Source of the DNA: Thiotrichaceae bacterium
GTDB lineage: Bacteria > Pseudomonadota > Gammaproteobacteria > Thiotrichales > Thiotrichaceae
NCBI GenBank assembly: GCA_026989145.1
Contig: JALSJU010000108.1
Coordinates: forward strand, 1-44,544
Direction of reading: 5' to 3'
Length of the DNA: 44,544 nt
The notes below the pieces were generated by a model that had not been told where the DNA came from, ran no database searches, and saw nothing but the letters and a program-made list of their open reading frames with translations. The translations under genes and the position numbers were made by a program. Positions 28,531-32,948 of the stretch are shown here, in pieces; position 1 is the stretch's first letter; the number at the start of each line of letters is the position of its first letter.

Positions 28531-28624
28531 TTTCCCTTTACAAAAAAACAATATCAGTATATTCTAATATACAGATACACTTTTGTATCGAGACTTCTAT
28601 TCACGCTAGGATAAGGATCACATC

Positions 28625-29545
28625 ATGAACAAACATTTAATCACACTATTTTCTGTGCTTGTTGCAAGCAGTGCAATTAGTACTTCAGCTTCAGCCAATT
28701 GGTTTAACGGTTTTAACAACGGCAACGGCAATGCAAATGGTTACGGCACGACTCAAGGTAACGGTAACACCAGTGGCAACGCTTCAGGCAATACCCAAGG
28801 AAGCACTCAAGGTTCAGGCAATGGCTGGGGAACTGGTAAAGGCAATGCAGATGGCGCGATTGATTTTAATATCAAATTTAAAGCCAAAGGCAATACCGAT
28901 ATGACCACACAGGGTAACCTACAAGGTCAAGGTCAAGGTCAAGGTCAAGGTGCTGGTAATGGTCAAGGCACAGGAAATGCTCAGGGAAATAGTAATGTAA
29001 ATGGGGATGTTGCTGGTAATACTACAGCGAACGCAAAAGGTGTAAATAAAAGAGCAGGCGCTGCCACTAATATACCTTGGAACACTAATGGCAGTGGCGT
29101 AAGCATGCCTTGGTCAAATAACAATGGCGCTAATAATTGGAGCATGCCGTCATTGCCAACTTTCAACAGTAATACAAACTCAAATAATTGGACAATGCCG
29201 TGGAATAGTAATGGTAGTAGTTGGACGATGCCATGGAATAATAATGGCGGTGGTAACTCTTTTTCAATGCCTTGGAATAGTGGTAACAACGGCACAGGTT
29301 TTAATATGCCTACTATGCCAACCATGAACAATAATGGAAATAGTTTTAGCATGCCGTGGAATAACAATGGTAACAATGGCTGGAAAATGCCTTGGAGCAG
29401 CAATAACAATACCGGTTACTATTACCCTCAAACTCAGTATGGTTACCAATTTGCGCCCATTAATCGTGCCCCGCAGATTAACCGTGCACCTATGATGAGG
29501 CCAGCCCCGGTAGCACCGCTACAAGTACCAAGTGCTCAAAAATAA
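28625..29545 (+). CDS. Secreted Gly/Asn/Gln-rich repeat protein, sulfur-globule-protein-like
   Basis: A 306-residue exported low-complexity protein. After a signal peptide (about 1-24, ending SASA) comes a Gly/Asn/Gln/Thr region with QG and GN repeats, a short AIDFNIKFKAKGNTDM segment, then from about residue 145 a run of MPW motifs: one IPW and six MPW followed by Asn/Ser/Gly spacers (e.g. WTMPWNNNGGGNSFSMPWN). The C-terminus is Tyr/Pro-rich (GYYYPQTQYGYQFAPINRAPQ). No Cys is present. The composition and plan recall sulfur globule proteins of sulfur-oxidising bacteria, which coat stored sulfur in the periplasm; amyloid-like or surface matrix roles are alternatives. AAGGA lies before the ATG and a strong terminator after the stop, suggesting abundant single-gene expression. 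Confidence 0.6.
   Translation: MNKHLITLFSVLVASSAISTSASANWFNGFNNGNGNANGYGTTQGNGNTSGNASGNTQGSTQGSGNGWGTGKGNADGAIDFNIKFKAKGNTDMTTQGNLQGQGQGQGQGAGNGQGTGNAQGNSNVNGDVAGNTTANAKGVNKRAGAATNIPWNTNGSGVSMPWSNNNGANNWSMPSLPTFNSNTNSNNWTMPWNSNGSSWTMPWNNNGGGNSFSMPWNSGNNGTGFNMPTMPTMNNNGNSFSMPWNNNGNNGWKMPWSSNNNTGYYYPQTQYGYQFAPINRAPQINRAPMMRPAPVAPLQVPSAQK
28922..28951 (+). repeat. Five tandem CAAGGT hexamers within the Gly/Gln-rich gene
   Basis: Five exact copies of CAAGGT encode successive Gln-Gly dipeptides. Because the unit is two codons long, slippage would change protein length without a frameshift. Confidence 0.9.
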
Positions 29546-29560
29546 GCTTAGAAACTTCAA

Positions 29561-29596
29561 AGCAAAAAAAAACAGCCTAGAGGCTGTTTTTTTTGC
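29561..29596. terminator. Strong bidirectional terminator
   Basis: CAGCC (29573-29577) and GGCTG (29582-29586) form the core stem, extended by a run of As on one side and Ts on the other (AGCAAAAAAAAACAGCC...GGCTGTTTTTTTTGCT). It ends the low-complexity gene on the plus strand and could also stop transcription of the minus-strand gene that ends at 29676. Confidence 0.9.
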
Positions 29597-31871: not shown

Positions 31872-32852
31872 TTACTCACTTTCAGCTTCAAGTACTGCAA
31901 CACTAATCAACTTGCCAATAGCACCATCAAAGTTATCCCAATCTTTAAACTTTTCTAGTTTTTTAACAATAATGGGTTTCATTTCAAAGGACTCCATGTC
32001 TTCATCGGCTAAGGTCTTGCTGGTATCGTAGATGATTTTCAGAAAGTCTTTGAACTCGGTTAAGACTTCTTTGCCACCAACCGGACCATGACCCGGGATA
32101 ACTTTTTTGATATCAAGCGCTAAACCGACGTCCATTGCTTTGATATTACCCACATAACTGCCATCATCTAAGCGCGGCATACGTGCTCTAAAAGCGTTAT
32201 CACCGGTTACCAAAACCTTGTCCTCAAGAATTTCAAACATCGCATCGGTCTTGGTGTGTGCTTTTACATTTAAGTGCGATTTTATTGTGATGTTATCAAT
32301 TTTTATTTCTTCACCATTTTTAAGAGCTGTTGATGGGTAGACTATTTTTGTCTCTTTTGTTGCCCCTTCGGTGAGGGTTTTCATCAGATTAATCCAACTT
32401 TCTGCTTCGCCATTCTTGGCTTCATTTATCATTTCTGGATGGGCATAAATTTCTACATTTGGGTAAGCTTCCTGCATGGCATGATTGCCTAGCCAATGAT
32501 CTCCATGTACATGGCTGTTAAAAACGTGAGTAACGGGTTTGTCTGTTTTGGCGCGAATCTTTTTTAATAGGGCACGACCGACATTTACGCTTGAGCCTGG
32601 ATCAATAACAATGACACTTTTATCTGTAATTATAAACGCAGGGTTATTCATAAAGCCTTTGTTTTTAACGCTTGGCTGACCAGTGGGGCCTAAAACAACC
32701 CACGTATGCTCGGCTACTTTGGTGACATCGAAATTATCCATTACACTGTTGCCTGTACTATTTTCTGCCGCACTTTTTGCTAGTAGCATTGCGGGCACAG
32801 TCATTAATGAAAGTGTTATTACGGTAATAAATAAAGAATGAATAAATTTCAT
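31872..32852 (-). CDS. Exported MBL-fold metallo-hydrolase (SoxH-like)
   Basis: A metallo-beta-lactamase-fold hydrolase with a signal peptide (MKFIHSLFITVITLSLMTVPAMLLA). I set the start at ATG 32852 because the longer frame begins at a TTG five codons upstream. Zinc ligands are visible in FNSHVHGDHWLGN (HxHxDH), in the later VTGDNAFRARMPR aspartate and in VIPGHGPVGG (last His). The overall pattern of AEHTWVVLGPTGQPS and FIITDKSVIVIDPGSSVNVG is that of periplasmic hydrolases annotated SoxH-like or class-B-like found in sulfur-oxidising and methylotrophic bacteria. The substrate is unknown; antibiotic hydrolysis cannot be concluded. Confidence 0.8.
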   Translation of the reverse strand: MKFIHSLFITVITLSLMTVPAMLLAKSAAENSTGNSVMDNFDVTKVAEHTWVVLGPTGQPSVKNKGFMNNPAFIITDKSVIVIDPGSSVNVGRALLKKIRAKTDKPVTHVFNSHVHGDHWLGNHAMQEAYPNVEIYAHPEMINEAKNGEAESWINLMKTLTEGATKETKIVYPSTALKNGEEIKIDNITIKSHLNVKAHTKTDAMFEILEDKVLVTGDNAFRARMPRLDDGSYVGNIKAMDVGLALDIKKVIPGHGPVGGKEVLTEFKDFLKIIYDTSKTLADEDMESFEMKPIIVKKLEKFKDWDNFDGAIGKLISVAVLEAESE

Positions 32853-32948
32853 CTGTTGGGTGCTCAATAATAGTTGAGCTGTTAATATAGCTTAAAAATA
32901 AAGTTTTGCACGGTAATAAATGGAAACTAATTAAAGTATGGCAATTCA

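Follow-up and report, generated by a model that had tools for sequence, protein, structure and literature searches.

A candidate sulfur globule protein with a Met-Pro-Trp repeat tail and a predicted operator shared with sulfur-oxidation genes in Thiotrichaceae

What does a secreted protein do whose C-terminal half is punctuated by Met-Pro-Trp (MPW) units, and does it belong to the sulfur metabolism of the Thiotrichaceae bacterium that encodes it? We analyzed the gene within its window, the whole 44,544-nt stretch of contig JALSJU010000108.1 (assembly GCA_026989145.1), starting from an original prediction that likened the protein's plan to that of sulfur globule envelope proteins. The plan itself, six MPW motifs, a Tyr/Pro tail, and no Cys in a secreted protein of 306 residues, is confirmed by the sequence and by shuffling: MPW occurs at residues 161, 191, 202, 215, 243, and 255, and these six copies compare with an average of 0.04, and never more than 3, when the mature composition is shuffled 100,000 times. 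The units are spaced with a period of 11–13 residues plus two longer gaps, and they supply the protein with regularly spaced prolines in repetitive sequence. The protein (29 kDa, pI 10.0, GRAVY -1.04) has a secreted-type composition that is aromatic and Met-rich, with one half rich in Gly, Asn, and Gln. The predicted signal peptide is corroborated by its relatives, as the Ala before the cleavage site is kept in 97% of 108 family members. The richness of the Gly/Asn/Gln half was also correctly described, but the half is not plain low complexity, since a conserved family core sits there (Table 1).

Table 1. Features of the MPW gene and its flanks, in window coordinates
Feature	Coordinates	Strand	Details
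Predicted operator palindrome AATATCAGTATATTCTAATATA	28550..28571	.	53 nt before the ATG
Ribosome-binding site AAGGA	28613..28617	+	7 nt from the ATG
Gene for the MPW-class protein, predicted sulfur-globule type	28625..29545	+	306 aa; no Cys
Signal peptide	28625..28696	+	residues 1–24; cleavage between SASA and NW; AxA site by inspection
Conserved N-terminal core with NGWGTGKGNADGAIDFNIKFKAKGNTDM	28697..29029	+	about residues 25–135; HMM match
(CAAGGT)5 coding (QG)5	28922..28951	+	exact copies; 2 in the closest orthologue
MPW repeat tail	29105..29395	+	six MPW[NS] units, mostly after [FW]x
Tyr/Pro-rich C-terminal tail	29420..29542	+	sequence composition
Rho-independent-type terminator, possibly bidirectional	29562..29596 (about)	+	-23.2 kcal/mol, z -4.6; T-run at the hairpin end

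Both of the expression signals that had been described, a ribosome-binding site and a terminator, are present, and an AGGA, GGAG, or GAGG motif lies within the last 18 nt before the start of 84 of 103 family genes. A consensus terminator scan did not pick up the downstream hairpin, a likely reason being that the T-run is drawn into the stem, and a sigma-70 promoter scan gave a result not above chance. An antisense ORF (28981–29409) was considered as a gene and rejected; it mirrors the repeats of the MPW gene. The five exact CAAGGT hexamers are where they had been placed, and the idea that their number can vary holds between species: the closest orthologue has five MPW units and two hexamers against six and five here, so that both tracts change. 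Across the MPW-class orthologues the number of MPW units is 3–10 and the usual period 11–15, less regular in the window's copy.

Searches of Pfam (E 0.001) and NCBIfam place the MPW protein in no family, and a 12.6-bit match to a serine-rich model was rejected as an effect of composition. AlphaFold, run on a 26-row alignment, gave a mean pLDDT of 42, with disorder predicted and no fold. Comparison with relatives, on the other hand, defines a family, for which we collected 108 distinct members from Thiotrichaceae and one neighbour genome; a whole-genome search of 57 relatives found homologs in 30, with up to nine per genome. The members share an N-terminal core, NGWGxGKGDADGEVDFxIxFKGKGxTxM, many positions of which are more than 90% conserved, and their tails diverge into MPW repeats, a helical-looking QMxAQxEAQRKQ type, and a Met/Pro/Gln-rich type. 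We rejected the possibility that the family match is a low-complexity artefact, because an HMM built without the MPW protein matches its full core (1.9e-31) and because W, D, F, K, and M are near-invariant against the Gly/Asn background.

By sequence comparison, the MPW tail distinguishes a single class of paralogs within this defined Thiotrichaceae family. The class forms one clade of seven in the window's genus (SH-aLRT 95) and occurs in two other genera; these three genera, represented mostly by draft genomes, are its limit. The window's own genome (G000) has two family copies, the MPW gene and one on contig C65. In plasmid records we found no homolog of the family; a 40.9-kb contig of a 4-contig assembly (G030:C1, L051), perhaps a plasmid, carries an sgp copy together with the operator described below. 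The MPW gene lies in the order PBP4, PPK2, ATP-dependent ligase, MPW gene, orf136, DUF533, which is conserved at orthologous loci of the same genus as far as contigs permit. These neighbours are housekeeping genes and give no functional clue. Two genomes of the genus have no MPW gene, and there orf136 lies within about 60 nt of the ligase gene, a clean absence. Elsewhere in the window (31872–32867, minus strand) is a gene for a metallo-beta-lactamase-fold protein, kin to SoxH and quinoprotein relay hydrolases but below the curated cut-off.

The upstream regions are more informative. From k-mers enriched upstream of family genes we derived a 22-bp palindrome, TATATTAGAATATTCTAATATA. A motif model fitted on these same genes places 82 of the 105 beyond the 99% limit set by shuffled sequence, compared with 1 of 105 shuffled; out-of-sample tests followed. 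When the window's genus was withheld from training, a de novo motif, TATATTAGAATATTCTnATATT, scored above the corresponding 99% limit at 20 of the 23 genes held out. For sgp-like genes outside the family, the site is present in 21 of 28 upstream regions, a set in which one locus comes from a relative of a genome that contributed two rows to the fitted set. The window's site differs from ATATTAGNATATTCTAATAT at one position (expectation for the whole window, 0.02), and a PWM from which the window's genus was withheld also finds it. The palindrome is AT-rich and stands in a promoter-like position, as would a mere AT-rich promoter element whose presence said nothing about regulation; we consider that explanation very improbable. 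With up to three mismatches on both strands, the window's genome has 26 matches against 3 for a reversed-pattern control, and genome G030 has 35 against 0. Moreover, the window, with all its promoters, holds only this one PWM match above 8 bits in 44.5 kb, the site is found in 0 of 27 downstream controls of the sgp-like genes, and many other sites stand at sulfur genes. A genome of genus g7 that has no family copy (G022) yields one weak site in 5.2 Mb. We infer from these counts that the palindrome functions as an operator; it was not found in the literature that we searched and may still be published.

The company that the operator keeps points to sulfur oxidation. In the window's genome, sites precede genes for an ArsR/BigR-like regulator (by 9 nt), an SQR-like flavoprotein (two sites), SoxX, a SoxAX-binding protein, TusA, and a Rieske protein. 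Other sites precede genes of no clear sulfur role (a lytic transglycosylase, an RND adaptor/DUF4124-like pair, unknown proteins), and some have no clear downstream gene. The arrangement recurs in other genera, before the SQR-like gene (G002), tusA/dapF (G014), soxX (G013), and the RND pair (G030), and sites lie upstream of dsrA in G002 (15.8 and 19.1 bits), in G030 (14.4 bits), and, weakly, in the window's genome (~10 bits). The link of the MPW gene to a sulfur regulon is thus well supported, and we hold it to be very likely.

Several other genes share this setting. In G000 and G002 (L239, L245) the operator lies between dsrA and a divergently oriented gene for a TauD/TfdA-like dioxygenase, and the divergent region of the RND efflux adaptor and DUF4124-like genes carries the operator in two genera (L175 in G000; L208 in G030). 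A second family of small secreted proteins, with the signature FFGxNNGEWKMGPYGPYYxExDWPEWTPMYWM, lies behind one-mismatch operators in two genera (L193:1580-2065 in G030; L198:967-1458 in G014); it has no Pfam or NCBIfam match and is possibly another globule protein. Additionally, Pro/Asn/Gln-rich secreted proteins of about 280–300 residues, with no family match, are encoded directly behind strong operators (L174:636-1481 in G000; L194:608-1510 in G002).

Which protein might bind the palindrome is suggested by the regulator's own operator site, and by that site alone: the ArsR-type protein would be autoregulated, and the site before its gene is kept in 6/6 close orthologues. ArsR repressors that respond to sulfane sulfur are known (SoxR, sHdrR, SqrR, BigR; PMC10451225, PMC12423496), and a Cys pair has been described for SoxR and sHdrR (Cys50 and Cys116 of sHdrR; PMC12423496). 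The relatives' group B ArsR proteins, to which a match at C51 corresponds in the window's genome, keep both Cys at a distance of 66 residues, a spacing like that of sHdrR. Group A, the autoregulated type (G000:C90), differs from the known repressors in that the first Cys of the pair is present and the second is missing. In six genomes of the window's genus (L209–L214) the group A protein has lost this second sensing Cys, and a second ArsR paralog is encoded elsewhere in the genome. G022 has retained an ArsR of the BigR type and lacks the operator.

The original reading hinged on the presence of sox, dsr, or sqr genes in the genome, which carries rDsrA, SoxB, SoxX, an SQR-like protein, TusA, and five DsrC-family genes; the host is a marine sulfur-oxidizing bacterium. 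The DsrC-family genes lie on contigs C127, C65, C51, C9, and C53; the one on C65 and the genome's second sgp gene are ~12 kb apart. Homologs are not confined to non-sulfur bacteria, which would have spoken for another role, and are concentrated in sulfur oxidizers that carry rDsr. Within the window's taxonomic family, the protein family is present in 50 of 63 genomes: in 41 of the 45 that have dsrA and in 9 of the 18 without a dsrA match, eight of these nine being drafts less than 95% complete. A family copy is absent despite rDsr from three genomes of the same genus and from one of g7. All seven g7 genomes (three of which are less than 70% complete) lack the protein family, and six of them lack dsrA. 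Across 321 genomes of the class, dsrA is found in 34 of 41 profile-positive and 68 of 280 profile-negative genomes (Fisher p=5e-13, uncorrected for phylogeny). Toward its distant end, the profile's matches shade into small secreted proteins, rich in Gly, Asn, and Tyr, from genomes with rDsr; these may resemble Sgp.

Filamentous Thiotrichaceae of sulfidic habitats might also export such a protein as an amyloid- or silk-like component of the extracellular matrix, sheath, or holdfast, out of contact with any globule. Its repetitive, secreted, Gly/Asn/Gln-rich make-up would suit that role, and filamentous relatives form rosettes (PMC10532065). We nevertheless consider it unlikely, given that the operator links the MPW gene to sox, sqr, tusA, and dsr and that homologs follow dsrA across the class. 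Nor did the MPW protein match a curlin repeat or any other Pfam family at E 0.001. Leucothrix, to which g7 probably corresponds, also forms rosettes, and the family is missing from every g7 genome.

The likeness to sulfur globule envelope proteins is upheld by the sulfur-oxidation genes of the host, by a defined family whose homologs are concentrated in rDsr bacteria, and by a predicted operator that also stands before sox, sqr, and tusA and, among relatives, before dsr. With a probability of roughly three in four, the gene encodes a periplasmic sulfur globule protein of the Thiotrichaceae sgp family and is controlled by the palindrome together with sulfur-oxidation genes. The role in the globule coat is what family, copy number, composition, and literature suggest. 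Instead of forming a structural coat, a member of the same regulon could serve as a soluble periplasmic carrier that binds polysulfide or sulfur, or could tether extracellular sulfur. The regulon evidence applies to such a protein equally, and a disordered, aromatic, Met-rich chain with so basic a pI could suit the binding of anionic polysulfide; multiple copies, high Gly and Asn content, variable repeat number, and a copy number that matches published sgp genes favour the structural role, and we judge a carrier or tether improbable.

As a coat component, the protein would be exported to the periplasm by Sec and would remain mostly disordered there. The conserved core probably forms a protein–protein layer, and the Met-Pro-Trp stickers, set at regular spacing on Asn/Gly spacers, probably rest with the Tyr/Pro tail on the surface of the elemental sulfur; the predicted disorder suits such a sticker-and-spacer coat with MPW units touching sulfur. 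The coat would keep the globule small, wetted, and accessible to oxidizing enzymes. Transcription would be governed through the palindrome, the likeliest agent being an ArsR-type repressor released upon persulfide or polysulfide; the regulator's identity and ligand, like periplasmic export and the contact of MPW with sulfur, are inferences here. A broader proposition, to which we give even odds, is that a single operator, conserved in Gammaproteobacteria far outside Thiotrichaceae, ties globule-coat genes to sox, sqr, tusA, and dsr under persulfide-sensing ArsR repressors, such that coat and enzymes are made together, and that the MPW class within it is a coat protein of its own, built of stickers and spacers and tunable in length.

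The predicted operator common to sulfur storage and oxidation is a more surprising result than an MPW-tailed sgp paralog. No model of Pfam or NCBIfam matched Sgp of the MPW kind here, and such proteins are not easily identified through homology; the core and the common operator offer a route from sequence alone to finding them and to predicting secreted sulfur-storage proteins. If an ArsR repressor does bind the operator, coat synthesis and sulfur oxidation would be one regulon across many sulfur bacteria.

How does the MPW protein compare with sulfur globule proteins already described? SgpA, SgpB, SgpC, and SgpD of Allochromatium vinosum likewise have a Sec signal, regularly spaced prolines in repeats, and a presumed envelope role. 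Compared by description only, SgpA–C are smaller (11–13 kDa) and described as extremely hydrophobic, whereas the MPW protein is hydrophilic by its GRAVY, Asn-rich, and equipped with MPW stickers; for Beggiatoa, strong hydrophobicity is not given as a defining trait. ALG67575.1 of Beggiatoa leptomitoformis (PMC7356093) likewise has a signal peptide and regularly spaced prolines and is, again by description, smaller than the MPW protein (about 15 kDa); there the gene is induced 10-fold by thiosulfate, and a transposon within it is accompanied by the loss of sulfur inclusions and lithotrophy. Sulfur storage is abolished both by loss of sgpBC in A. vinosum and by disruption of the Beggiatoa gene (PMC10386293, PMC7356093). 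In the literature that we found, an MPW-tailed class is not described among the Thiotrichaceae sgp genes, of which six are predicted in Thiothrix caldifontis and one in Thiolinea disciformis (PMC10386293). Those proteins, like the family reported here, are secreted, Gly/Asn-rich, and multicopy, and the 1 to 9 copies per genome that we find fit the published range.
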